A stretch of 64,000 bases of DNA from Marinibacterium anthonyi. Lineage in GTDB: Bacteria > Pseudomonadota > Alphaproteobacteria > Rhodobacterales > Rhodobacteraceae. Shown piece after piece: positions 12,189-43,829 of the stretch (position 1 is the first letter of the stretch; the number at the start of each line of letters is the position of its first letter). A program made the position numbers and the translations under genes. The notes below the pieces were generated by a model. The model saw only the letters and a list, made by a program, of their open reading frames with translations. It did no database searches and was not told where the DNA came from. The stretch spans positions 5,411,501-5,475,500 of the forward strand of contig CP031585.1 in NCBI GenBank assembly GCA_003217735.2, read 5' to 3'.

Positions 12189-13477
12189 CTGCTCTCACGC
12201 TCAAGCACGCGCTTCTGGGTGGCGCCGCGGCCCTGTCGCTGCTGTCGACCCCGGCACTGGCCACCGACATCACCTTTTTCTACCCGGTGCAGGTCGGCGG
12301 CCCGCTGACCCAGATCATCGACGGTTACGTCGCCGGGTTCGAGGAAAGCCATCCCGACATCCATGTGGATGCCGTCTATGCCGGCAATTACATCGACACC
12401 ACCAACCGCGCCCTGACCGCGGCGCGCAACGGCACCCCACCCGACGTTGCCGTGCTGCTGGCCACCGACATCTTCACCCTGATCGACAACGAGGTCGTCG
12501 ACCCGATCGACACCTTCATCCAGACCGACGACGACAAGGCATGGATCGACGGTTTCATGCCCGCGTTCCTGGCTTCGGCCAAGGTCGACGGCCACCTCTG
12601 GGCCGCGCCGTTCCAGCGGTCCACCGCCATCGAGTTTTACAACAAGGACGCCTTCCGCAAGGCGGGCCTGGACCCCGAACAGCCGCCCAAGACCTGGGAC
12701 GAACTGGTCGAGATGGGCCAGAAGCTGACCAGGCGCGATGCCAACGGCAACGTCACGCAATACGCCATCGGCATCCCGGGCAATTCCGGGTCCGCCCAGT
12801 GGCTGTTCGGCGCGCTGGCCGCCCAGAACGGCGCCCGGCTGATGAGCGATGATGGCACCAGGACCTATTTCAACGATCCCAAGGTGGTCGAGGCGCTGCA
12901 GTTCTGGGTGGACCTGGGCCAGAAATACGGCATCCATCCCGACAGCATCCAGCAATGGGCCACCACGCCGCAGGACTTCCTGGAAGGGCGGCTGGTCATG
13001 GCCTGGACCACCACCGGCAACCTGACCAACCTGCTGGGCAAGGCCGATTTCGACATCGGCACCGCCCCCTTCCCGGGCCATCCGACGCCGGCATCGGTGC
13101 TGGGCGGCGGCAACTTCTACATCTTCAAGGACGTCTCGGACGAGAAGAAGGAAGCCGCCTTCGAATTCGTCAAGTACATGACCTCGCCCGCGATCCTGGC
13201 CGACTGGAGCATCCGGACCGGCTATGTCGCCCCGCGCGACGACAGCTGGCAGACCAAGGCGCTGACCGATTACGTTGCCAGCACCCCGCAGGCCATCGTC
13301 GCCCGCGACCAGATCCCCGATGCCGTGCCGGAGCTGTCCACCTATGAAAGCGCCCGCGTCGGCCAGGCCCTGAACGACGGGCTGCAAGCGGCGCTGACCG
13401 GCACCGCCACCCCGCAGGAGGCAATGGACCGCGCCCAGGCCGAGGCCGAACGCATCCTGCGTCCCTACCAGAACTGA
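12185..13477 (+). CDS. ABC importer substrate-binding protein, UgpB-like
   Basis: Periplasmic binding protein of 430 residues. A signal peptide (MTALTLKHALLGGAAALSLLSTPALA) is followed by a family 1 extracellular solute-binding fold: ITFFYPVQVGGPLTQIIDGYVAGFE, the GTPPDVAVL loop, and the typical WAAPFQRSTAIEFYNKDAF segment near residue 140. The GGGNFYIFKD and KYMTSPA segments are also family typical. Start chosen at 12185 because AAGGAAG lies just upstream and the signal peptide begins there. The closest style is UgpB (glycerol-3-phosphate and glycerophosphodiesters) though general carbohydrate binding is possible. Second gene of the transport operon; permease genes follow after 28 nt. Confidence 0.88.
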   Translation: MTALTLKHALLGGAAALSLLSTPALATDITFFYPVQVGGPLTQIIDGYVAGFEESHPDIHVDAVYAGNYIDTTNRALTAARNGTPPDVAVLLATDIFTLIDNEVVDPIDTFIQTDDDKAWIDGFMPAFLASAKVDGHLWAAPFQRSTAIEFYNKDAFRKAGLDPEQPPKTWDELVEMGQKLTRRDANGNVTQYAIGIPGNSGSAQWLFGALAAQNGARLMSDDGTRTYFNDPKVVEALQFWVDLGQKYGIHPDSIQQWATTPQDFLEGRLVMAWTTTGNLTNLLGKADFDIGTAPFPGHPTPASVLGGGNFYIFKDVSDEKKEAAFEFVKYMTSPAILADWSIRTGYVAPRDDSWQTKALTDYVASTPQAIVARDQIPDAVPELSTYESARVGQALNDGLQAALTGTATPQEAMDRAQAEAERILRPYQN

Positions 13478-27428: not shown

Positions 27429-28184
27429 GTGGCGAAACAGGCGTCGAAGAAACCCGGAAAAACCAGAAAGTCCAAGGCCACGGTCACCGAAACGCCGCTT
27501 GTGCGGCGAATCCGCCCGGGCCGCTGGCTGGTCCGCAACCTGATCCGCCTGGCCCTGGTCATCGCGGCCATCTTCGTCGTGCTGGTGTTCCTGTTTGCCG
27601 TCGTGAACCCGCCCGTCACCCATACGATGTGGGTCGAATACGGGCGCTACGGACCGTTGGAACGCGAATGGGTGCCGCTGGACGACATCGCGCCGGTGAT
27701 GGCCCGGTCCGTCGTCGCGGCCGAGGACGCCAATTTCTGCCTGCACTGGGGGCTGGATGTCGACGCGATCAAGTCCGCCATGGAAGACGGCGGCACGCGC
27801 GGCGGTTCGACGATTTCGCAGCAGGTCAGCAAGAATGTCTTCCTGTGGCAGGGCCGATCCTATGTCCGCAAGGCGATGGAGACGATGATCACGTTGATGG
27901 TCGAACTGGTCTGGCCCAAGCGCCGCATTCTCGAGGTCTACCTGAACGTGGCCGAAACCGGGCCTGGCATCTTCGGGGTCGACGCCGCCGCACGCCACTA
28001 TTTCGATGTCTCCGCCGCCGACCTGACCCCGATGCAGGCCGCGCGGATCGCCGCCGTGCTTCCGTCGCCCCGCACGCGGAATCCCGCCAATCTGTCGCCC
28101 GGACAACGCCGAAGGGCGGTTTCGATCGCCGATGGGGCGGCGACAATCGCCGTCGATGGCCGCGCCGCCTGTTTCGAGGATTGA
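27429..28184 (+). CDS. mtgA: Monofunctional biosynthetic peptidoglycan transglycosylase
   Basis: Glycosyltransferase family 51 enzyme that polymerises lipid II glycan strands in the periplasm. The 251-residue protein has a basic N-terminus, one membrane anchor (about residues 37-59) and the GT51 motifs VVAAEDANFCLHWGLD with catalytic Glu99, GGSTISQQVSKNVFLW (about 123-138) and KRRILEVYLN (about 165). No transpeptidase domain, as expected for MtgA. The start is a GTG at 27429. The gene stands alone between gltB and a GST. Confidence 0.93.
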   Translation: MAKQASKKPGKTRKSKATVTETPLVRRIRPGRWLVRNLIRLALVIAAIFVVLVFLFAVVNPPVTHTMWVEYGRYGPLEREWVPLDDIAPVMARSVVAAEDANFCLHWGLDVDAIKSAMEDGGTRGGSTISQQVSKNVFLWQGRSYVRKAMETMITLMVELVWPKRRILEVYLNVAETGPGIFGVDAAARHYFDVSAADLTPMQAARIAAVLPSPRTRNPANLSPGQRRRAVSIADGAATIAVDGRAACFED

Positions 28185-28239
28185 AGTCCGCTACCGCTCG
28201 GCGTTACAAACAGGTCATTCCCCTTTGACAAAGTCCCCA

Positions 28240-28905
28240 ATGGCCCGCCTTTTCCACGTTCCGCTGTCGCCCTTCTGCCGCAAGGTCCGCCTGTCTCTCG
28301 CCGAGAAGAAGATCGAGGTCGAACTGGTCGAGGAACGCTATTGGGAGAAGGACGCGGACTTCCTGCGGCGCAACCCGGCGGCCAAGGTCCCGGTGCTGAA
28401 GCTGGACAACAAGCTGATGGCCGAAAGCGCCGCCATCTGCGAATACCTTGAGGAAACGCGCCCGGAACAGCCGCTGCTGCCCAAGGATGCCGAGGGCCGG
28501 TACGAGGTGCGCCGCCTGATCGGCTGGTTCGACGACAAGTTCCACAACGAAGTGACGTCGAAGCTGCTGTACGAACGGGTCAACAAGAAGGTCATGGGGC
28601 AGGGCTTTCCCGACAGCCGCAACGTCAAGGACGGGGCCAAGGCGATCAAGTATCACCTGGACTACATGACCTGGCTGCTGGACCACCGCCGCTGGCTGGC
28701 CGGCGATATCATGACGCTGGCCGATTTCGCCGCCGCCGCCCATCTGTCGTCGCTTGATTACATCTCGGACGTGGATTGGAACCGGTCGGCCGTGGTCAAG
28801 GACTGGTACGCCAAGATCAAGTCGCGCCCGGCCTTCCGGTCGATCCTTGCAGACCAGATCCCGGGTTTCCCGCCGCCGCCCCACTACGCTGACCTGGACT
28901 TCTGA
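28240..28905 (+). CDS. Glutathione S-transferase family protein
   Basis: A 221-residue GST. The N-terminal thioredoxin-like half (about residues 1-78) begins MARLFHVPLSPFCRKVRLSL, with Ser10/Pro11/Cys13 at the catalytic end of helix 1 and the glutathione-binding PVL/ESAAICEYLEE block (residues 51-70). The C-terminal helical half has GDIMTLADFAAAAHLSSLDY, the usual N-capping box with Asp. It probably conjugates or reduces electrophiles with glutathione. It starts 55 nt after mtgA without a strong ribosome site. Convergent with the glutathione peroxidase gene. Confidence 0.88.
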   Translation: MARLFHVPLSPFCRKVRLSLAEKKIEVELVEERYWEKDADFLRRNPAAKVPVLKLDNKLMAESAAICEYLEETRPEQPLLPKDAEGRYEVRRLIGWFDDKFHNEVTSKLLYERVNKKVMGQGFPDSRNVKDGAKAIKYHLDYMTWLLDHRRWLAGDIMTLADFAAAAHLSSLDYISDVDWNRSAVVKDWYAKIKSRPAFRSILADQIPGFPPPPHYADLDF

Positions 28906-28970
28906 GACTGATTCGGTCCCGACCGATGCTGCGGTCGTTGAATGAAAATTGCGGAAAAATTGATCCATAG

Positions 28971-28990
28971 CCGGTAAAGGACCGGTTTCG
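28971..28990 (+). terminator. Weak terminator-like hairpin after GST
   Basis: CCGGT (28971-28975) / ACCGG (28981-28985) followed by TTTCGGG. Short stem, 65 nt downstream of the GST stop in an AT-richer convergent gap. Confidence 0.35.
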
Positions 28991-29063
28991 GGATAAAAAA
29001 GTTCAACGCCGTGCGTACGCGCCTTGGCGGTTGGCGCGCCGCGTGCGGACAGACCGGAAACCC

Positions 29064-29612
29064 TTAGTCCAGCGTTGTTTCTATGAGGTCTACGATCTCG
29101 GGACTTTCCGGTGGGGTGTTCGACCGCCATGTGCCCATGATTTCTCCGTCCGGGCCAATGAGAATCTTGTTGAAATTCCATTGCGGCACAAACGATATCC
29201 GGTCCTTTACGGACTTGAAAAACGGATGAGCTCGGTTACCCTTAACATGAGTAATATCTGTCATTGGTAAATCCAATCCGAAGGTGATCATGCAAAAGTC
29301 CTTAACGTCCGCGGCAGAGTTCAGCTCTTGATTGAAGTCGTCCGAGGGAATGGCAAGCACGATCAATCCCTTGTTGCGGTAGCGATCGTACAGGGACTGC
29401 ATGCCTTCGTATTGGTAAGTGTATCCGCATTGAGAGGCGGTGTTGACCACCAGAACCGGTTGTCCGCGCCAGTCTTCCAGCGCAAGCGTGCCTCCGTCGA
29501 TCGACGGGAATGTCCCTGTCAACCCATCGGCAAAGGCCGTCCGGGCACAGAGCACGAGTAGCAAGAGCAGAAGGCGCATGTTGATTAACCATCTTGGCGA
29601 GGTAGGTCGCAT
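29064..29612 (-). CDS. Exported glutathione peroxidase family protein
   Basis: A 182-residue thioredoxin-fold peroxidase. An N-terminal signal sequence (hydrophobic MRLLLLLLVLCARTAFA after 11 residues) directs it to the periplasm. GPx motifs: NTASQCGYTYQYEGMQ with the peroxidatic Cys in place of selenocysteine, LAIPSDDFNQEL with the Gln-type position, and WNFNKILIG with the catalytic Trp/Asn. The ATG at 29612 follows AAGGTGAAC, favouring it over the ATG 11 codons later. The base composition is clearly AT-richer than flanking genes (many A/T third positions), a sign of different origin or low expression. It likely detoxifies lipid or organic peroxides, perhaps with thioredoxin-like donors. Divergent from msrB. 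Confidence 0.88.
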   Translation of the reverse strand: MRPTSPRWLINMRLLLLLLVLCARTAFADGLTGTFPSIDGGTLALEDWRGQPVLVVNTASQCGYTYQYEGMQSLYDRYRNKGLIVLAIPSDDFNQELNSAADVKDFCMITFGLDLPMTDITHVKGNRAHPFFKSVKDRISFVPQWNFNKILIGPDGEIMGTWRSNTPPESPEIVDLIETTLD

Positions 29613-29696
29613 CCGTTCACCTTGAGGAAAATAGGGCTTGGAAGTTCCTGGACCAGCCCCACATTAAGTCGTCATACACGTTAGAAAGGAATTCCC

Positions 29697-30146
29697 ATGG
29701 CGCGATATACCATATCCGACGAAGCTCTCGCCGCGCTGACCGAGGAGGAATTCTATGTCACGCAGCAAAGCGGAACCGAACGCCCCGGAACCGGCAAGTA
29801 CCTGGCCAACAAGGAGCCGGGCATCTATGTCGACGTGGTGTCCGGCGAGCCGCTGTTCGCATCCGCGGCGAAATACGAATCCGGGTGTGGCTGGCCCAGT
29901 TTCGTGAAACCGATCGAGCCCATGAATGTCGTGGAAAAGACCGACCGCACACACGGCATGGTCCGCACCGAAGTCCGCTCGAAACACGGCGACAGCCATC
30001 TTGGCCATGTCTTTCCGGACGGACCAAGGGATCGGGGCGGTCTGAGGTATTGCATCAATTCTGCGGCGCTGCGTTTCGTTCATCGGGACGAAATGGAAAG
30101 CAGAGGTTATGGTGACTACATTCAATTTGTGGAGGATTTGTCATGA
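29697..30146 (+). CDS. msrB: Peptide methionine-(R)-sulfoxide reductase
   Basis: Reduces Met-R-sulfoxide in proteins. The 149-residue protein has the MsrB blocks [10 protein letters not shown] (Cys64, candidate recycling Cys), [11 protein letters not shown] and [11 protein letters not shown] with the catalytic Cys119. The two CxxC pairs that bind structural zinc in many MsrBs are absent (SGEPLF and SKHGDS occupy those places), so it is of the non-zinc class. GAAAGGAATT precedes the ATG. Its stop overlaps the msrA start by 4 nt. No signal peptide. Confidence 0.94.
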
Positions 30147-30655
30147 CCAAACGCGAACGCGCCGTATTGGCAGGTGGTTGTTTCTGGGGGATGCAGGACC
30201 TGATCCGCAAGCTTCCCGGCATCCAGACCACCCGCGTGGGCTATACCGGAGGTGACGTTCCCAACGCCACCTACCGCAATCATGGCACCCATGCCGAAGC
30301 CATCGAGATCTGGTTCGATCCCGACGTGATCAGTTATCGCGATCTGCTGGAATTCTTCTTCCAGATCCACGACCCGACGACGATCAACCGCCAGGGCAAC
30401 GACATGGGTCTCAGCTATCGCTCTGGAATCTATTTCGAATCCGAGGATCAGCGCCAGGTGGCCCTGGATACGATCATGGACGTGAACAAGTCCGGGCTGT
30501 GGCCGGCCCGCGTCGTGACCGAGGTCAACCCGGTCGGCGATTTCTGGGAAGCCGAACCCGAACATCAGGATTACCTGAAGCGGTTCCCGAATGGCTACAC
30601 CTGCCATTTCCCGCGCGCGGGCTGGGTTCTGCCCCGCCGAAAAGCCGCAGAATGA
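30143..30655 (+). CDS. msrA: Peptide methionine-(S)-sulfoxide reductase
   Basis: Reduces Met-S-sulfoxide; partner of MsrB for complete repair. 170 residues with the catalytic GGCFWG motif (Cys13) and the [16 protein letters not shown] and FFQIHDPTT family blocks. A C-terminal Cys in [11 protein letters not shown] can serve as resolving Cys. Translation is coupled to msrB by ATGA. With the divergent exported GPx and the GST just upstream this forms a small oxidative-damage group. Confidence 0.95.
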
Positions 30656-30666
30656 CAGCGGAATGA

Positions 30667-31701
30667 TCAGGGTCCGAGGCGCGTGCAAGCCCAGCGTGCC
30701 GCCTCGGCGACAGTATCGTCAGAGTCGGATCTGAGTCCTGCCGCCACGGGCATCAGCCGCGCGTCCTTCGAATTTCCGATGGCATAGAGCACGTTTCGCA
30801 CGAAACGATCCCGCCCGATCCGCTTGATCGGCGATCCCGAGAACCGCGCGCGGAACCCGGCGTCGTCCAGGCGGGCCAGTTCTTCCAAAGGGGCGGTGGC
30901 GTCGCCCATGTAGCGCAGATCCGATGCTGCCCTGGCGAACTTGTTCCAGGGGCAGATCGCCAGGCAATCGTCGCAGCCATAGATCCGGTTGCCCAGCAGC
31001 GGCCGCAGGTCTTCGTCGACCGGACCCTTGTGTTCGATCGTCAGGTAGGAAATGCAGCGCCGCGCATCCAGCCGGTAAGGTTCCGGAAAGGCGTTCGTCG
31101 GACAGATGTCCTGGCACAGCCGGCACGACCCGCAGTGATCCACCTCGGCCGGGTCCGCCGGCAGGTCCAGCGTGGTGAAAATCGCCCCCAGGAAGCACCA
31201 GTTGCCCCAGTCGCGGCTGACCAGGTTGGTGTGCTTGCCCTGCCACCCCAGCCCCGCCGCCTGCCCCAGCGCCTTTTCCGGCACCGGCGCGGTATCGACA
31301 AAGACCTTGATCGCGGGATCCGATCCCGCCGCGTCGATCAGCCAGCGGCCCAGCCGTTTCAACCGTTTCTTGACGATGTCGTGGTAATCCCGCCCCCGCG
31401 CATAGGCCGAAACCACCCCGCGGTCGTGCTGCTCCAGCAGCGGCAGGGGATCGGACTCCGGCGCATAGCTTTCCGCCAGCATGATCACCGACCGCGCCTC
31501 GGGCCAAAGCGCGGCAGGATCCGCGCGCCAATGCACCCGGTCTTCCAGCCACCCCATCTGCCCGTGATACCCCGCGTCCAGGAACGCCCGCAGCCGGTCC
31601 GCCACTTCGGGCACCGCGTCGGGCCGACAGATGCGCATGGCGACGAACCCTTCGTCCAGGGCGCGGGTGTTCAGACGGTCTTTCAGCGCGGCGAGGTCCA
31701 T
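30667..31701 (-). CDS. queG: Epoxyqueuosine reductase
   Basis: Last step of queuosine synthesis: cobalamin-dependent reduction of epoxyqueuosine at position 34 of tRNAs. The 344-residue protein has the catalytic-Asp block [26 protein letters not shown] (about residues 137-162) and two ferredoxin-like [4Fe-4S] sets, [17 protein letters not shown] (about 193-209) and [14 protein letters not shown] (about 243-256). The C-terminal HEAT-like segment ([14 protein letters not shown]) is present. Convergent with msrA (11-nt gap), divergent from the MBL gene. Confidence 0.94.
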
Positions 31702-31772
31702 ATCGCTCCTTAACTGTCTTCGCGATCGCTGCCAAACATGCAGGACCTATACATCGCCAAAGGACCTCCTCC

Positions 31773-32648
31773 ATGTCCCAGTCCCCGATCGTCCGGGCTT
31801 TCTTCGACCGCCCGACCGGCAGCCTGCAATACGTCTTCCACGATCCGGACACCCGCAAGGGCGCCATCGTCGATCCGGTCTGGAACTTCTTCCCCGAGGC
31901 CGGCGCCGTCACCACCCGATGCGCGGACAAGATCCTGGCCTATGTCGCGCAGGAATCGATCCAGGTCGACTGGATCCTCGACACCCATCCCCATGCCGAC
32001 CACTTCAGCGCGGCGGTCTACCTGTCAGAGCAGTTGGGCGGCGTACCGCGCGCCATCGGGGAAAAGGTGACGGGGGTGCAGAAGCTGTGGCAGGGCCTGT
32101 ATCACCTGCCGGACCTGAAGACGGACGGCAGCCAGTGGGACAGGCTGTTCGCCGATGGCGACAGTTTCATGCTCGGCAATATCGAGGTGAAGGTGATGTT
32201 CTCGCCCGGTCACACGCTGGCGTCGATCACCTACGTGGCCGGCGACGCCGCCTTCGTGCATGACACGCTGATGATGCCCGAAAGCGGCACCTCCCGGGCC
32301 GATTTCCCCGGTGGCAGCGCGGCCGAGCTTTGGCAATCGCTGCAAGCCATCCTAGCCCTGCCGACCCACACACGCCTTTACATCGGCCACGATTACCCCG
32401 CCGCCGGGGCCCAGCCGACCTATATGGCGACCGTCGCCGAACACCGCCTGCGCAACACGCACGTCAAGGACGGCATCTCGCGCGAAGAATTCATCGCCAC
32501 GCGCGACGCCCGCGACGCCACGCTGAAACTCCCCGACCGCATGCTCGCCGCGCTCCAGGTCAACATCCGCGGCGGCCGCCTGCCCGAGCCCGAAGAAGAC
32601 GGCACCAGTTACCTGAAACTCCCCATCGGCCGCTTTGCCCCCCGCTGA
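31773..32648 (+). CDS. ETHE1/Blh-like MBL-fold protein, probable sulfur (persulfide) dioxygenase
   Basis: A 291-residue metallo-beta-lactamase-fold protein. Metal motif Thr71-His72-Pro-His74-Ala-Asp76-His77 (THPHADHFSAA), SPGHTLASITY with a further His, VHDTLMMPESGTSRADFPGGSA and YIGHDYP are the pattern of ETHE1-type persulfide dioxygenases, specifically the bacterial Blh branch (VDPVWNFFPE, GEKVTGVQK). These oxidise glutathione persulfide to sulfite and help remove sulfide. AAAGGA precedes the ATG. No BigR regulator or rhodanese is adjacent, which usually accompanies blh. Glyoxalase II activity is the main alternative but less likely. Confidence 0.85.
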   Translation: MSQSPIVRAFFDRPTGSLQYVFHDPDTRKGAIVDPVWNFFPEAGAVTTRCADKILAYVAQESIQVDWILDTHPHADHFSAAVYLSEQLGGVPRAIGEKVTGVQKLWQGLYHLPDLKTDGSQWDRLFADGDSFMLGNIEVKVMFSPGHTLASITYVAGDAAFVHDTLMMPESGTSRADFPGGSAAELWQSLQAILALPTHTRLYIGHDYPAAGAQPTYMATVAEHRLRNTHVKDGISREEFIATRDARDATLKLPDRMLAALQVNIRGGRLPEPEEDGTSYLKLPIGRFAPR

Positions 32649-37846: not shown

Positions 37847-38269
37847 ATGGATTACGACAGCGTCGAGGCCCCCGATTTCGGGCGCAGCCTGACGGGGATC
37901 GGGCTGAACCTGCTGGTGCGCGACGTGCCGGGGCGCTGTGATTTCCTGGTCCAGGTCTTCGGGATGCGCGCCTACCAGGTTTCTGGGGATTTCGCGATCC
38001 TGCGCTATGGTGATACGGTGTTCCAACTGCACGCGGACGGGACGTATCACGCCAATCCGCTGCTGAGCCTGCTGCCCGAGACCCCGCCGCGCGGCGCGGG
38101 GATCGAACTGCGGCTGTATGACACCGACCCCGACGCGGCGGTGGCCCGGGCCAAAGCGCTGGGGGCCGTGATCCTGCAGGGGCCGACCGACAAGCCGCAC
38201 GGGCTGCGCGAGGCCTACGTGCTGGACGACGACGGCTATGCCTGGGTGCCCAGCCGACGCCTGGCATGA
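37847..38269 (+). CDS. VOC (glyoxalase/bleomycin-resistance) superfamily protein
   Basis: A 140-residue single-domain VOC protein: IGLNLLVRDVPGRCDFLVQVFGMRAYQVSGDFAILRYGDTVFQLH forms the first beta-alpha-beta-beta-beta unit and GIELRLYDTDPDAAVARAKALGAVILQGPTDKPHGLREAYVLDDDGYAWVPSR the second. Possible metal ligands are few, so catalysis is not certain. AAGGGCGGG precedes the ATG; the open frame extends far upstream but antisense to ade. Function unknown. Confidence 0.75.
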   Translation: MDYDSVEAPDFGRSLTGIGLNLLVRDVPGRCDFLVQVFGMRAYQVSGDFAILRYGDTVFQLHADGTYHANPLLSLLPETPPRGAGIELRLYDTDPDAAVARAKALGAVILQGPTDKPHGLREAYVLDDDGYAWVPSRRLA

Positions 38270-38387: not shown

Positions 38388-39143
38388 ATGAGCGTTGCCG
38401 AACTCAGACCGAACCTCGACCACTGGCAGGAGCGCGTGGACCTTGCCGCGGCCTTCCGCTGGACCGTGCGGCTGGACATGCACGAGGGCGTCGCGAACCA
38501 CTTCTCGCTGGCGGTGAACGATGACGGAACCAGGTTCCTGATGAACCCCAACCAGATGCATTTTGGCCGGATCCGGGCCAGCGACCTTCTGGAACTGGAC
38601 GCCAACGATCCGTCGACCATGGACAGGCCCGACGCGCCGGACCCCACCGCCTGGGGCCTGCACGGCACGCTCCACCGGCTGTGCCCGCATGCGCGCTGCG
38701 CCATGCATGTCCATTCGATCCATGCGACCGTCCTGGCGTCGCTGTTCGACAGCCGGCTGCTGCCGATCGACCAGAATTCGGCGATGTTCTTCAACCGCCA
38801 CGTCATCGACGAGAATTACGGCGGGCTGGCCTTCGAGGAAGAGGCGCTGCGCTGCGCCGAACTGCTGGCCGACCCGAAGCAGACCGTGCTGATCATGGGC
38901 AACCACGGCATCATGGTGATCGGCCAGACCGTGGCCGAAACCTTCAACCGCATGTTCTATTTCGAACGCGCTGCCGAAACCTATATCCGCGCGCTGCAGA
39001 CCGGCCAGCGCCTGCGGGTGCTGTCGGACGAGGTCGCCGAAAAGACCGCGGCCGAAATCGAGACCTATCCCGAACAGGCCGACCGGCATCTGTCCGAGAT
39101 CAAGCTGCTGCTGGACGGCGAAGGGTCGGATTACGCCGCCTGA
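38388..39143 (+). CDS. Class II aldolase/adducin-family protein
   Basis: A 251-residue protein of the class II aldolase fold. The family signature is clear: GVANHFSLAVNDDGTRFLMNP near residue 35, CAMHVHSIHATVLASL with two zinc-binding His (about 103-107), and IMGNHGIMVIGQTVAETFNRMFYFERAAETYIRA with the third His (about 170). Members are aldolases, epimerases or decarboxylases of small hydroxy compounds. CCAGGAG precedes the ATG. It opens a cluster with an acyl-CoA dehydrogenase, CoA ligase and CaiD-like hydratase, so a retro-aldol or decarboxylation of a carnitine-like or hydroxy-acid intermediate is conceivable, but not shown. Confidence 0.82.
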   Translation: MSVAELRPNLDHWQERVDLAAAFRWTVRLDMHEGVANHFSLAVNDDGTRFLMNPNQMHFGRIRASDLLELDANDPSTMDRPDAPDPTAWGLHGTLHRLCPHARCAMHVHSIHATVLASLFDSRLLPIDQNSAMFFNRHVIDENYGGLAFEEEALRCAELLADPKQTVLIMGNHGIMVIGQTVAETFNRMFYFERAAETYIRALQTGQRLRVLSDEVAEKTAAEIETYPEQADRHLSEIKLLLDGEGSDYAA

Positions 39144-39213
39144 AGGGCGCGAACCGGCGAGAGACGGGACAAGACGCCGGCCAGATTGGCCGGGGACAGG
39201 AATTGAGGCAAGA

Positions 39214-40374
39214 ATGCAATACGGGCTGAGTGACGAGCAGGAGATGATCGTCTCGACCGTTCGTCGATTCGTCGAAACGGAAATCTACCCCCACGAAGAC
39301 CTGGTCGAACGCAGCGGCGACGTGCCGGCCGAGATCGCGGCCGAGATCAAGCGCAAGACGCTGGAGCTGGGGTTCTACGCCTGCAACTTCCCCGAAAGCG
39401 TCGGCTGCGCGGGGCTGAGCCACATGGATTTCGCCCTGGTCGAACGGGAACTGGGCCGCGGATCCATGGCGCTGAACCATTTCTTCGGGCGGCCCCAGAA
39501 CATCCTGATGGCCTGCGAGGGCGACCAGGTGGATCGCTACCTGATGCCCGCCGTCCGGGGCGAGCGGATGGATGCGCTGGCGATGACCGAACCGGGCGCC
39601 GGGTCGGACGTAAGGGGCATGAAATGCGCCGCGGTGCGCGATGGCGGCGACTGGGTCGTGAACGGGACCAAGCATTTCATTTCCGGAGCGGACCACGCCG
39701 ATTTCATCATCGTCTTCATCGCCACGGGCGAGGATCAGACACCCAAGGGGCCCAAGAAGCGCATCACCGCCTTTCTGGTCGACCGGGGCACGCCGGGCTT
39801 CACCATCCGCGACGGCTACAAATCGGTCAGCCACCGCGGCTACAAGAACATGATCCTGGATTTCGACGACTGCCGCCTGCCCGACGCCCAGGTCCTGGGC
39901 GAGGTCGACGGCGGGTTCGACGTGATGAACACCTGGCTTTACGCCACGCGCATCACGGTCGCGACGATGTCGGTGGGCCGGGCGCGGCGGGTGTTCGATT
40001 ATGCGTTGAATTACGCCGCCGAGCGGGAACAATTCGGCCAGCCCATCGGTAAGTTCCAGGGCGTGTCCTTTCAGATCGCCGACATGATCACGGAAATCGA
40101 CGCCGCCGACCTGCTGACGCTGGCCGCCGCCAATCGGCTGGACCAGGGGCTGCCGGCGAACCGGGAAATCGCCAGCGCCAAGGTGTTCGCATCCGAGATG
40201 CTGGCCCATGTGACCGACGCGGCGATCCAGATCCATGGTGGCATGGGGCTGATGGACGATTATCCGCTGGAACGGTTCTGGCGCGACGCCCGCGTCGAAC
40301 GGATCTGGGACGGGACCAGTGAAATCCAGCGCCACATCATCTCGCGCGAATTGCTGCGGGCGTTGGGCGCATGA
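39214..40374 (+). CDS. Acyl-CoA dehydrogenase family protein
   Basis: A 386-residue flavoprotein of the usual ACAD length. FAD/substrate blocks: AMTEPGAGSDVRGM (about residue 128), GTKHFISGADHADF, SHRGYKNMILDFDDCRLP, REQFGQPIGKFQGVSFQIADM and QIHGGMGLMDDYPLERFWRDARVERIWDGTSEIQR. In this last block the position just before Gly-Thr, the catalytic Glu of medium/short-chain ACADs, is Asp366. The true base may lie elsewhere (as in isovaleryl-CoA dehydrogenase) or the enzyme may act as a reductase or on a special acyl group. GAGGCAAGA precedes the ATG. Part of a five-gene cluster; the CaiD-like gene suggests a crotonobetainyl-type substrate. Confidence 0.88.
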   Translation: MQYGLSDEQEMIVSTVRRFVETEIYPHEDLVERSGDVPAEIAAEIKRKTLELGFYACNFPESVGCAGLSHMDFALVERELGRGSMALNHFFGRPQNILMACEGDQVDRYLMPAVRGERMDALAMTEPGAGSDVRGMKCAAVRDGGDWVVNGTKHFISGADHADFIIVFIATGEDQTPKGPKKRITAFLVDRGTPGFTIRDGYKSVSHRGYKNMILDFDDCRLPDAQVLGEVDGGFDVMNTWLYATRITVATMSVGRARRVFDYALNYAAEREQFGQPIGKFQGVSFQIADMITEIDAADLLTLAAANRLDQGLPANREIASAKVFASEMLAHVTDAAIQIHGGMGLMDDYPLERFWRDARVERIWDGTSEIQRHIISRELLRALGA

Positions 40375-40393
40375 GGCAGGTGTAGGTTTGGGA

Positions 40394-40416
40394 TATTTGG
40401 ACAAAGATGAAGCCAG
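40394..40416 (+). repeat. Dispersed intergenic element, copy B
   Basis: TATTTGGACAAAGATGAAG plus CCAG matches the core of copy C (59443 onward) at 20 of 23 positions. It lies 20 nt after the acyl-CoA dehydrogenase stop and overlaps the probable TTG start of the next gene. Confidence 0.65.
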
Positions 40417-42439
40417 AAGCGTCGGGAAAGGTGCCCTGACGCGGTTGCTGGCCCCGAAGCGGATCGCCGTGGTGGGCGGCGGGGCCTGGGCGGCCTCGGT
40501 GCTGGGCGGGGCCGAACGGCTGGGGTTCGCCGGGGCGCTGACCTTTGTCCATCCCAGGGGAAAGGCGCCGGACGGCGCGCATGTGGTGACCTCGCTGGCG
40601 CAGCTGGACGCGGCGCCGGATGCGGTTTTCCTGGCGATCAACCGCCATGCCTCGATCGACGCGGTGCGCGAACTGCGCGAGATGGGCGCCGGCGGGGTGG
40701 TCTGTTTCGCCAGCGGCTTCACCGAGGCGCTGGCCGAGGATGCGACCGGCGCCGATCTGCAAGGCCAACTGGTCGAGGCGGCGGGCGACATGCCGATCCT
40801 GGGGCCCAATTGCTACGGCTATGTCAACGCGCTGGACGGCGCGGCGATCTGGCCGGATCAGCACGGGATGGCGCCGGTGGATCGCGGCGTGGCGATCCTG
40901 ACGCAAAGTTCGAACATCGCGATCAACCTGACCATGCAGCAGCGCGCCCTGCCGCTGGCGATGATGGTCACCTGCGGGAACATGGCCCAGCAAAGCCAGG
41001 CGCGGATCGCCGCGGCGCTGCTGGATGATCCCCGCATCACCGCGCTGGGGCTGCACGTGGAAGGCTTCGGCGACATCGCCGAATGGGAAGCGCTGTCCGA
41101 CAAGGCGCAGGACCGTGGCGTGCCGGTTGTCGTGCTCAAGGTCGGCCGGTCGTCCCAGGCGCGGGCGGCGACGGTGTCGCACACCGCCTCGCTGGCCGGC
41201 AGCGATGCCGGGGCGCAGGCGCTGATCGACCGGCTGGGGTTTGCCCGGCTGGATGACCTGTCGTCTTTCCTGGAAACGCTGAAGCTGTTGCACGTGACCG
41301 GCCCGCTGCCGTCGCGCAACATGGCCGCGATCAGCTGTTCGGGCGGCGAGGCCAGCCTTGTGGCCGACATGGGCGCGGCCCGTGGGCTGAGCTTTCCGCC
41401 CCTGACCGAGGCCCAGGGCAAGGAGCTGCGCGCGGCGCTGGGACCCATGGTCGCCCTGGCCAACCCGTTGGATTACCACACTTACATCTGGCGCGACGTG
41501 CCGGCGATGACGCGGGCCTGGGCCGGCGTTGCGATGGGCGCGCAGGCCATGACCCTGTCGGTCGTCGATTACCCGATCACCGATGCCACCGACTGGATCT
41601 GCGCGACCGAGGCGGCGCTGGCCGTGCGGCGGCAGACCGGCAAACCCTTCGGCGTGGTGGCAAGCCTGCCCGAACTGATGCCGCGCGAGGTCGCCCTGCA
41701 CCTGATGGACGGTGGTGTCGTGCCGTTCAATGGGCTGGCCGAGGCGCTGAATGCCATCGTGGCCGCCCAGCAGGTCATGGGCATGGCCCCGCCCGTTCTG
41801 CCCGCGCCCGCGGTCGCCGGCGACCAGGTGCTGGACGAGGTGGCGGCCAAGACGCTGTTGCAGCGCGCCGGCGTGCATGTGCCGCGCCACATCGTGATCC
41901 CGCGCGGCACGACGCCCGACCTGGGCGATCTGCGCGGGCCGTTTGCCGTCAAGGGGCTGGGCCTGGCGCATAAATCCGACAGCGGCGCGGTGCGGCTGAA
42001 CATCGACGCCAAGGATGTCGGTTGCGTCGCCGAATCCATCGGCACCGATCGCGTGCTGGTCGAACAGATGGTGCGCGGCGGTTCGGTCGAGCTTCTGGTC
42101 GGCGTGGTGCGCGACCCGGCGCATGGTTTCGTGCTGACCCTGGGATCGGGCGGCGTGATGACCGAGATCCTGCGCGACACCGTCTCGCTTCTGGTGCCAA
42201 GCCCGTCCGAAATGGTGCTTGAGGCGCTGCAAAAGCTGCGCTGCTGGCCGATGATCGACGGCTATCGCGGCCGGGCGCCCGTGGATCTGGACGCGCTGCT
42301 GGACGCCGTCGCCTCGGTTCAGGCGCTGGTCGAGGCCGAGTCGCACCGCCTGCTGGAGCTGGAGATCAACCCGCTGATCTGCGGCCCCGGCGGGGCGGTG
42401 GCGGCCGATGCGCTGATCCGGTTCGGGGATCCGTCGTGA
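40397..42439 (+). CDS. NDP-forming acyl-CoA synthetase (acetate-CoA ligase family)
   Basis: A 680-residue fused alpha-beta acyl-CoA synthetase. The CoA-binding Rossmann domain comes first (KRIAVVGGGAWAASVLGG), then the succinyl-CoA-synthetase-like domain with LGPNCYGYVNALDG, LTQSSNIAINLTM and SHTASLAG carrying the phospho-His (about 270), and finally an ATP-grasp domain (about 460-680; GPFAVKGLGLAHKSDSGAVRL, ELEINPLI). It activates a carboxylate to its CoA thioester using ATP or GTP. No ATG or GTG is available near the N-terminus; the TTG at 40397, inside a repeat element, is the best start (40388 is an alternative). In this cluster the substrate may be carnitine-like or another hydroxy acid. 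Confidence 0.85.
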   Translation: MDKDEARSVGKGALTRLLAPKRIAVVGGGAWAASVLGGAERLGFAGALTFVHPRGKAPDGAHVVTSLAQLDAAPDAVFLAINRHASIDAVRELREMGAGGVVCFASGFTEALAEDATGADLQGQLVEAAGDMPILGPNCYGYVNALDGAAIWPDQHGMAPVDRGVAILTQSSNIAINLTMQQRALPLAMMVTCGNMAQQSQARIAAALLDDPRITALGLHVEGFGDIAEWEALSDKAQDRGVPVVVLKVGRSSQARAATVSHTASLAGSDAGAQALIDRLGFARLDDLSSFLETLKLLHVTGPLPSRNMAAISCSGGEASLVADMGAARGLSFPPLTEAQGKELRAALGPMVALANPLDYHTYIWRDVPAMTRAWAGVAMGAQAMTLSVVDYPITDATDWICATEAALAVRRQTGKPFGVVASLPELMPREVALHLMDGGVVPFNGLAEALNAIVAAQQVMGMAPPVLPAPAVAGDQVLDEVAAKTLLQRAGVHVPRHIVIPRGTTPDLGDLRGPFAVKGLGLAHKSDSGAVRLNIDAKDVGCVAESIGTDRVLVEQMVRGGSVELLVGVVRDPAHGFVLTLGSGGVMTEILRDTVSLLVPSPSEMVLEALQKLRCWPMIDGYRGRAPVDLDALLDAVASVQALVEAESHRLLELEINPLICGPGGAVAADALIRFGDPS

Positions 42440-43047
42440 TGCGAACCGTGGGCGCCGTGCTGTTTCCCGGGTTCGAGATGCTGGATCTGTACGGCCCGCT
42501 TGAGATGTATGCGCTGCTGTCGCAGGACTTCGAGATCCGCACTGTTGCCGAAACCCCCGGCCCGGTCGCGGCGAAGAACGGCCCGGCGACGCTGGCCACC
42601 GACGGGTTCGGTGACAACCGCGCCTATGACCTGCTGCTGATCCCCGGCGGCAGCGGCACCCGGACGCAACGGCACAATACGGCGATGACCGACTGGCTGG
42701 CCCGTGCCGCCGAACGCACCGAATGGGTGACGACGGTCTGCACCGGATCGATGCTGTTCGCCGCGACGGGCCTTTTGGACCGGCGCCGGGCGACCACCAA
42801 CAAGCTGGCATTCGGCGAGGTCGCGGACGCCTACCCGGCTGTCGACTGGCAACCCCGGGCGCGGTGGGTGCGGGACGGGCAGATGGTGACATCGTCCGGG
42901 ATATCGGCCGGGATGGACATGACGCTGTCCGTGATCGCCATGCTGCTGGGCCCCGACCGGGCCCGTGACGTCGCCCGCTGGGCCGAATACACCGCGGTCA
43001 CCGACCCCGACAACGACCCTTTCTGCGCCAAGGATGCCCCTGAATGA
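42439..43047 (+). CDS. DJ-1/PfpI-family protein, isonitrile-hydratase-like
   Basis: A 202-residue protein of the class I glutamine amidotransferase-like DJ-1/PfpI superfamily: AVLFPGFEMLDLYGPLEMYALL at the N-terminus, LLIPGGSGTRTQ, and the nucleophile elbow VTTVCTGSMLFAATGLLDRRRATTNKLAF with Cys near residue 101. This pattern is closest to isonitrile hydratase (InhA) and transcriptional-regulator AraC N-domains, but no AraC domain follows. The ATG overlaps the previous stop by one base (TGATG), and its own stop overlaps the CaiD-like start (ATGA). Role in the CoA cluster unknown. Confidence 0.8.
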   Translation: MRTVGAVLFPGFEMLDLYGPLEMYALLSQDFEIRTVAETPGPVAAKNGPATLATDGFGDNRAYDLLLIPGGSGTRTQRHNTAMTDWLARAAERTEWVTTVCTGSMLFAATGLLDRRRATTNKLAFGEVADAYPAVDWQPRARWVRDGQMVTSSGISAGMDMTLSVIAMLLGPDRARDVARWAEYTAVTDPDNDPFCAKDAPE

Positions 43048-43829
43048 CCGACTCTCCGCTGAAGACCCGCCGCGAGGGCGGCATCCTCGAAGTCACGCTT
43101 GACCGGCCCAAGGCCAATGCGATCGACCTCGCGACCTCGCGCCTGATGGGCGAGGTGTTCCGCGACTTCCGCGACGACCCGGATCTGCGGGTGGCCATCG
43201 TCACCGGCGGCGGCGAAAAGTTCTTTTGCGCCGGCTGGGACCTGAAGGGCGCGGCGGATGGCGATGCGGTCGATGGCGATTACGGCGTCGGCGGCTTTGG
43301 CGGCCTGCAGGAACTGCGGGCGATGAACAAGCCGGTGATCGCCGCCGTCAACGGCATCTGCTGCGGTGGCGGCTTCGAACTGGCGCTGTCGGCCGACATT
43401 ATCCTGGCCGCCGACCACGCGCGGTTCGCCTTTCCCGAGATCCGGTCGGGCACCGTGGCCGATGCCGGCACGATCAAGCTGCCCAAGCGCATTCCCTACC
43501 ATGTGGCGATGGAAATGCTGCTGACCGGGCGCTGGTTCGAAGTGGACGAGGCCAGGCAATGGGGCATCGTGAACGAGATCCTGCCGGGCGACGCGTTGAT
43601 GGACCGGGCCTGGGACGTGGCGCGGCTGCTGGAAAGCGGGCCGCCGCTGGTCTATGCCGCGATCAAGGAAATCGTGCGCGACGCCGAGGATTCCAAGTTC
43701 CAGGACGTGATGAACCGCATCACCGGGCGCCAGCTGGACTCGGTCGACACGCTGTATGCCTCCGAAGACCAGATGGAAGGCGCGCGGGCCTTTGCGGAAA
43801 AACGCGATCCGGTCTGGAAGGGGCGCTAA
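43044..43829 (+). CDS. caiD: CaiD-like carnitinyl-CoA dehydratase (enoyl-CoA hydratase family)
   Basis: A 261-residue crotonase. The segment FCAGWDLKGAADGDAVDGDYGVGGFGGLQELRAMNKPVIAAVNGICCGGGFELALSADI is distinctive for carnitinyl-CoA dehydratase, which hydrates crotonobetainyl-CoA to L-carnitinyl-CoA. Oxyanion-hole positions are in the CAGWDL and GICCGGGFE stretches; the PEIRSGTVADAG block carries acidic residues near the active site. Length equals E. coli CaiD. Start is coupled to the DJ-1 gene by ATGA. With an acyl-CoA dehydrogenase and CoA ligase in the same cluster this suggests quaternary-amine CoA chemistry, though no CaiB CoA transferase or betaine transporter is present here. Confidence 0.82.
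   Translation: MTDSPLKTRREGGILEVTLDRPKANAIDLATSRLMGEVFRDFRDDPDLRVAIVTGGGEKFFCAGWDLKGAADGDAVDGDYGVGGFGGLQELRAMNKPVIAAVNGICCGGGFELALSADIILAADHARFAFPEIRSGTVADAGTIKLPKRIPYHVAMEMLLTGRWFEVDEARQWGIVNEILPGDALMDRAWDVARLLESGPPLVYAAIKEIVRDAEDSKFQDVMNRITGRQLDSVDTLYASEDQMEGARAFAEKRDPVWKGR

Follow-up and report, generated by a model that had tools for sequence, protein, structure and literature searches.

Genes for an acyl-CoA dehydrogenase, an NDP-forming CoA ligase and a CaiD-like hydratase of Marinibacterium anthonyi probably encode the gamma-butyrobetaine to carnitine segment of an aerobic quaternary-amine pathway

We analysed a stretch of 64,000 nucleotides of the Marinibacterium anthonyi genome (contig CP031585.1, positions 5,411,501 to 5,475,500; referred to as the window), in which a class II aldolase (ALD), an acyl-coenzyme A (CoA) dehydrogenase (ACD), a nucleoside diphosphate (NDP)-forming acyl-CoA ligase (ACS), a DJ-1/PfpI-family protein and a CaiD-like crotonase (CaiD) are encoded one after another. 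Our best explanation, to which we assign a probability of about 0.82, is that ACD, ACS and CaiD form the CoA-dependent gamma-butyrobetaine to L-carnitine segment of an aerobic quaternary-amine pathway. With substrates, direction and electron acceptor all three predicted from sequence, and with gamma-butyrobetaine to carnitine as the likely direction, ACS would use ATP and CoA via a phosphohistidine to form butyrobetainyl-CoA, and may also activate crotonobetaine or carnitine; ACD would convert butyrobetainyl-CoA to crotonobetainyl-CoA, delivering the electrons to electron-transferring flavoprotein (ETF); and CaiD would add water to crotonobetainyl-CoA, giving L-carnitinyl-CoA. A thioesterase-fused carnitine 3-dehydrogenase (CDH), encoded elsewhere in the genome, would free carnitine and oxidise it to 3-dehydrocarnitine, which BKACE and the thioesterase of CDH would convert to glycine betaine. 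The direct evidence consists of the gene families, the conservation of the unit, its linkage and co-occurrence with CDH, the presence of BKACE in the linked loci and the orthology of the window genes to the copies in those loci. Neither the aldolase nor the DJ-1 protein has a place among the proposed steps, and both are accessory.

ACS orthologues were found in 107 of 149 genomes of the window's order, all from its family (54 of the 73 genera sampled), and in 106 of these 107 genomes a CaiD orthologue adjoins ACS, at most one gene apart, the exception (G124) having a weak CaiD match only. Because ACS is this widespread and CaiD is so regularly beside it, the observed grouping exceeds chance, and the ACD-ACS-CaiD core is a conserved unit; a first-pass annotation of the window had put forward cluster conservation as a check, and for this core it was found. 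Here and below, G, C, g and L designate genomes, contigs, genera and loci, G000 being the genome of the window. All counts were derived from match positions, keeping one ACS orthologue row per genome (107), CaiD rows of at least 71% identity (106), CDH rows over the cut-off (121 rows in 120 genomes) and ALD rows over the cut-off (107 rows in 102 genomes). ACS rows dropped as weaker or paralogous include G106:C7, G130:C31, G000:C1:3226511, G027:C5, G074:C2:840327 and G110:C31; CaiD rows of 53% identity or less were also dropped (G110, G124 and G133 among others), and G015, G019 and G114, where the CDH row is just below the cut-off, were tallied as CDH-less.

CDH, defined by the PRK07531 carnitine 3-dehydrogenase model over its cut-off, is present in 120 of the 149 genomes, comprising all 107 genomes with ACS as opposed to 13 of the 42 without it (Fisher 4e-21). 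When each of the 73 genera was represented by a single genome, 1000 draws gave a median table of 50/0/10/13 with a median p of 9e-9 and a largest p of 4e-7. In the varying genera g4, g6, g7, g28 and g35 both genes are gained or lost together; g3, g13 and g38 contain some CDH genomes without ACS. The two genes are also physically linked, being 12 kb or less apart in 35 genomes from 20 genera.

Beyond the order we inspected named loci, the best 80 of 574 by ACS alignment, which come nearly all from Rhizobiales (Rhizobium, Sinorhizobium/Ensifer, Shinella, Mesorhizobium and others). The order BKACE-CDH-ACD-ACS-CaiD occurs in 74 of the 80, and 73 of these 74 complete clusters have a divergent CdhR-like gene. 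The linked BKACE belongs to PF05853, the CDH of L057 (727 bits on PRK07531, cut-off 592) carries a fused 4HBT_2 thioesterase domain, and the linked DJ-1/AraC regulator has GbdR as its top NCBIfam match (197 bits, cut-off 480). In phylogenetic trees the window copies fall into clades together with CDH-linked copies, comprising 118 leaves for ACS (support 1.0), 118 for ACD (support 0.994) and 108 for CaiD (support 0.948), the label "CDH-linked" being assigned per locus and covering also the six of the 80 named loci without all five genes. The window thus holds the dehydrogenase, the CoA ligase and the CaiD-type hydratase together, each orthologous to CDH-linked copies.

M. anthonyi also has the genes for the later half of the route, unlinked to the window unit. 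A CDH with a thioesterase fusion is encoded at C1:1320280-1321743 (771 bits on PRK07531, cut-off 592, profile positions 3-493 of 495), and about 1.8 kb upstream of it lies a BKACE gene (L082) whose product is 85% identical to the BKACE of L064. The same contig carries a second, divergent carnitine-like cluster at C1:3216000-3248000 (L038, L039), in which further genes for an ACS-like protein, ACD, CaiD, BKACE and a CDH-like protein are found. Its ACS-like, ACD and CaiD proteins are 38%, 54% and 45% identical to those of the window and are excluded from the window clades in all three trees, while its CaiD-like protein is 51% identical to E. coli CaiD. The second cluster differs from the window unit by an additional betaine-aldehyde-dehydrogenase-like gene, a luciferase-like monooxygenase, a beta-lactamase-fold protein, and an ABC transporter and a CaiB/BaiF-like gene, the last two named by eye.

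Over 262 columns the window CaiD shares 54.6% identity with E. coli K-12 CaiD, compared with 35.1% for PaaF and 30.7% for PaaG, the two E. coli hydratases that served as controls, and its top NCBIfam match is crotonobetainyl-CoA hydratase (318 bits, next family 226). E132 is present in all 122 distinct relatives, and the position of E157 is occupied by D in 86 and by E in 36. ACD is a generic short-chain-type dehydrogenase, matching several such enzymes at 225-233 bits, and it is 28.5% identical to E. coli CaiA. At D366, which we take to be the place of the usual acidic base, 121 of the 122 distinct relatives have an acidic residue (85 D, 36 E) and the remaining one has a gap, whereas CaiA has Gly. 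Beyond CaiD, the likeness to E. coli carnitine reduction drawn in the first-pass annotation is not supported, and a carnitine reduction of the E. coli kind was rejected on the divergence between ACD and CaiA. The generic character of ACD, together with the promiscuity of crotonases, would also suit a unit for the ordinary beta-oxidation of short-chain or branched acyl-CoAs in which the crotonase is generic; as CaiD is much closer to E. coli CaiD than to PaaF, and as the unit is linked to and co-occurs with CDH and BKACE, we regard such a unit as quite unlikely.

The phosphohistidine of ACS, H272 (numbered from 40367), is found in 123 of 123 distinct relatives, and position 410 is mostly aromatic (W in 110, F in 5, Y in 4, other in 4; n = 123). 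The closest solved relative is DddX (7cm9, 177 bits), an ATP-dependent dimethylsulfoniopropionate (DMSP) lyase, in which the conserved histidine is preserved and Phe435 is aligned with W410. These features, and acryloyl-CoA reductase as the best NCBIfam name of ACD (295 bits, cut-off 640), speak for a reading in which the substrate is another zwitterionic onium acid such as DMSP, with ACS as a DddX-like ATP-dependent lyase or ligase and ACD and CaiD processing acryloyl-CoA. In the pairwise ACS-DddX alignment, which is of low identity and not conclusive alone, the proposed lyase base Glu432 of DddX falls into a three-residue gap and Trp391 stands opposite His, so that the residues of ACS, as far as this alignment goes, would fit an onium-acid ligase better than a DMSP lyase. 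Moreover, the partners of ACS across genomes are carnitine genes, and the transporter, DddB and DddC described with DddX (PMC8163506) are absent from the five genes and the two flanking ones scanned. A DMSP lyase was judged unlikely after the alignment and the comparison of neighbours, and the DMSP reading as a whole appears very improbable to us.

The gamma-butyrobetaine route has to be weighed against several observations that speak the other way. The CDH and BKACE genes of M. anthonyi are 4.1 Mb away from the window on contig C1 (5.56 Mb), and queries for CDH, BKACE, aldehyde dehydrogenase and a CdhR-like regulator gave no match in 19.5 kb around the unit (L040); the same genome holds the second, divergent carnitine-like cluster, which may share the work with the window unit. 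No NCBIfam model matched ACS near its cut-off, and the score of CaiD is below the curated NCBIfam equivalog cut-off of 500. CDH occurs without ACS in 13 genomes, though this is expected for carnitine-only users, the co-occurrence of ACS and CDH can in part reflect genome reduction and relatedness, and the named loci, ranked with a Rhizobium-type sequence, are a non-random sample. Finally, it is from synteny in Sinorhizobium relatives that ACS is presumed to be the CoA ligase of the Sinorhizobium meliloti route.

The co-occurrence and linkage of ACS with CDH and the 55% identity of CaiD to E. coli CaiD support one part of the first-pass annotation, namely an aerobic-type CoA-thioester route for a carnitine-type betaine with one NDP-forming ligase in the place of CaiC and CaiB. 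The route itself is not new, as it is already described for S. meliloti (PMC12482172).

The five genes, in the order given and on one strand, were confirmed together with their domain families and with the overlapping stops and starts of the last three that had been noted before (Table 1): the stop codon of ACS (42437-42439) shares sequence with the start of the DJ-1 gene, whose own stop codon (43045-43047) runs into the CaiD ATG at 43044. The start of ACS is uncertain, as the list of open reading frames (ORFs) gives 40319, while homologues of the translation from 40367 begin to align near its residue 22.

Table 1. Genes of the window discussed in the text, with proposed functions where these are assigned.
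Feature	Position in window	Strand	Basis and remarks
VOC-fold (glyoxalase-superfamily) protein, upstream of ALD	37847..38269	+	PF00903, 33 bits
ALD, class II aldolase/adducin-like protein, PRK07490 family, 251 aa	38388..39143	+	NF005689 and Aldolase_II
ACD, acyl-CoA dehydrogenase, proposed gamma-butyrobetainyl-CoA dehydrogenase, 386 aa	39214..40374	+	Pfam Acyl-CoA_dh N, M, C
ACS, NDP-forming acyl-CoA ligase, proposed gamma-butyrobetaine/carnitine:CoA ligase	40388..42439	+	CoA_binding_2, Succ_CoA_lig and ATP-grasp_5 in a single chain
DJ-1/PfpI-family protein, accessory, 202 aa	42439..43047	+	DJ-1_PfpI; alternative GTG start 42436
CaiD-like crotonase, proposed crotonobetainyl-CoA hydratase, 261 aa	43044..43829	+	ECH_1; identity to E. 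coli CaiD

The DJ-1 gene, which had been counted as an added member of the pathway, does not belong to the core. Start-to-start distances between ACS and CaiD fit neighbouring genes in all but eight genomes, and the spacing leaves room for a DJ-1 gene in six of 106 (G000, G001, G093, G103, G109 and G128); the odd spacing in G040 and G127 coincides with an ACS matched in two pieces. Among the six, a DJ-1 homologue was directly seen only in G000, G001 and G103, and homologues in L055 and L056 are 54-55% identical. As the spacing fits an insertion in just these few genomes, a role as core enzyme was rejected, and the DJ-1 gene is therefore a rare, lineage-limited, accessory insertion between ACS and CaiD. 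The best solved relatives of its product are 3mgk and isonitrile hydratase.

ALD scores 407 bits on NF005689 (cut-off 260), which places it in the PRK07490 family; H96, H107, H109 and H173 are conserved in 60 of 60 distinct relatives aligned, and the nearest solved relatives include NovR and TqaM. In 39 of the 107 ACS genomes (23 genera) ALD and ACS are 12 kb or less apart, so that ALD, an added member in the first-pass annotation, is an optional companion of the unit. Over its cut-off ALD occurs in 102 of the 149 genomes, 100 of which carry CDH. Among 299 genomes sampled from the phylum, ALD exceeds its cut-off in 14 that are not of the window's family, and 12 of these also have an ACS match at E<=1e-90; among these 12, ACS is of a divergent type (38-42%) in G156, G210 and G289, and eight of the other nine belong to one genus. 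In none of the 149 genomes are ALD and CDH both found 12 kb or less from ACS; in G055 a distance of 8.7 kb separates ALD from CDH. In L065 (G039) another class II aldolase, of the PRK07044 family (357 bits versus 207), is encoded at 12370-13101, directly 3' of the CDH gene, which makes a second, independent association of this fold with carnitine genes.

In M. anthonyi an ALD paralogue (74% identical) is encoded between a gamma-butyrobetaine/trimethyllysine-dioxygenase-like and a 3-hydroxyisobutyrate-dehydrogenase-like gene (L083 7756-10680; G000:C1:447755-450679); a choline-dehydrogenase-like GMC gene is nearby, and the set recurs in G035 (L093). The dioxygenase-like gene scores 252 bits on TIGR02409 (cut-off 415), 250 on the TmpA model and 126 on the trimethyllysine dioxygenase (TMLD) model. 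Matches to it at E<=1e-60 occur in 17 of the 149 genomes and full-length homologues of at least 49% identity in seven, a count that omits a partial match in G144 (57%, with an adjoining ALD fragment match), and ALD adjoins the dioxygenase in six of the seven, G118 being the exception. The order in G078 (L111) is CaiD, ACS, ACD, dioxygenase, ALD, LysR, VOC; outside the family, L107 has ALD and the dioxygenase with LysR between them, and in two genomes of another family (L106, L108) ALD has a choline-dehydrogenase-like gene and a GbdR/CdhR-like regulator in its neighbourhood. The neighbours of ALD in several relatives are also VOC, LysR, adenine-deaminase or AMP-nucleosidase genes, and in one relative (L102) its setting looks unrelated. 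Some of the gene calls in these and other loci come from a simple script based on GC position, which failed on low-GC loci such as L091. ALD recurs near quaternary-amine genes, and its linkage to ACS alone is no safe ground for a firm role.

Additive to the gamma-butyrobetaine route, ALD could act as a feeder, splitting a hydroxylated quaternary amine such as 3-hydroxy-trimethyllysine and so releasing an aldehyde that leads to gamma-butyrobetaine. The presence of CDH in nearly all ALD genomes is consistent with this, as is the dioxygenase resembling gamma-butyrobetaine dioxygenase (BBOX), TmpA and TMLD, which stands beside ALD in most genomes that have it in full length and in L107, and between ALD and ACD in G078. 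A further parallel is an Arctic SAR11 island, for which a class II aldolase gene is listed alongside genes for CDH, BKACE and aldehyde dehydrogenase and two BBOX genes (PMC12421898). However, the dioxygenase is found in far fewer genomes than ALD, the varied neighbours of ALD imply that common descent may account for part of its linkage to ACS, and in no genome do ALD and CDH both lie close to ACS. Furthermore, the known 3-hydroxy-trimethyllysine aldolases use pyridoxal phosphate (PLP), and cleavage by a metal-dependent enzyme of class II would have no chemical precedent. We consider the feeder role unlikely, and equally doubtful is the complete sequence in which a BBOX/TMLD-like dioxygenase would hydroxylate, a metal-dependent PRK07490 aldolase would cut, and the aldehyde would pass via gamma-butyrobetaine to ACS, ACD and CaiD and on to carnitine and betaine. 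Among the literature matches listed, no paper tying this class II aldolase to trimethyllysine stood out. If the sequence is true, the aldolase supplies the missing bacterial C-C cleavage step, and marine bacteria could take trimethyllysine all the way to betaine with an aldolase that does not depend on PLP. The recurrence of ALD close to genes of the carnitine type offers a concrete lead, open to experiment, towards a step still lacking in quaternary-amine catabolism.

As to the surroundings, a VOC gene near ALD is also found in the relatives' loci L090, L092, L094, L097 and L111; it is a recurrent neighbour of ALD and may be a candidate link to the pathway. Past it lie adenine-deaminase-like and AMP-nucleosidase-like genes, named by eye, and downstream of the five-gene set a gene for a DUF302 protein follows. 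A family scan of the five genes and the two flanking ones found no CaiB, CaiC or CaiT, the other ORFs at 33-50 kb being judged by eye only. At 28001-32000 the G+C content of the window is 0.613, compared with 0.647-0.683 in the remaining 4-kb steps, and the ORFs there appear by eye to be ordinary chromosomal genes.

The analysis provides a likely function for a gene named merely "acetate--CoA ligase family protein" in plasmid records. The occurrence of ACS in 107 of the 149 genomes and in many rhizobia suggests that the use of gamma-butyrobetaine is wider in these groups than gene names tell. Among the literature matches listed, no paper naming the NDP-forming ligase of this route stood out. 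Ruegeria pomeroyi is reported to grow on carnitine and to make more CdhABC in the presence of N-osmolytes (PMC12478193), and a carnitine transporter is known (PMC10130141).

The closest known counterpart is the pathway of S. meliloti, whose 3-hydroxyacyl-CoA dehydrogenase SM2011_c01638 converts carnitine to 3-dehydrocarnitine and betainyl-CoA to betaine (PMC12482172). Sinorhizobium/Ensifer relatives have the uninterrupted series CdhR-BKACE-CDH-ACD-ACS-CaiD, and their proteins match those of the window at about 77% identity for ACD and 78-79% for CaiD (S. meliloti itself is not among the 80 loci). In contrast, the M. anthonyi genome has ACD-ACS-CaiD split from CDH and BKACE, the unit follows a class II aldolase and contains the DJ-1 insertion, and a CdhR-type regulator was not found in the 19.5 kb around the unit. 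S. meliloti reportedly uses five enzymes for the seven steps from gamma-butyrobetaine to betaine (Bazire, 2019). With the E. coli caiTABCDE system the window shares the CaiD-type hydratase, whereas the ligase CaiC, an AMP-forming enzyme, and the CoA-transferase CaiB have no counterpart in the cluster, one NDP-forming ligase being present instead, and ACD differs from CaiA in overall identity and in its acidic residue. DddX and ACS have the NDP-forming ligase superfamily and the phosphohistidine in common, His292 of DddX being described as conserved across the whole superfamily (PMC8163506). The two differ in their neighbour genes, and in the low-identity pairwise alignment Glu432 of DddX has no equivalent in ACS; if ACS is indeed the ligase of the gamma-butyrobetaine route, both enzymes would act on onium carboxylates.

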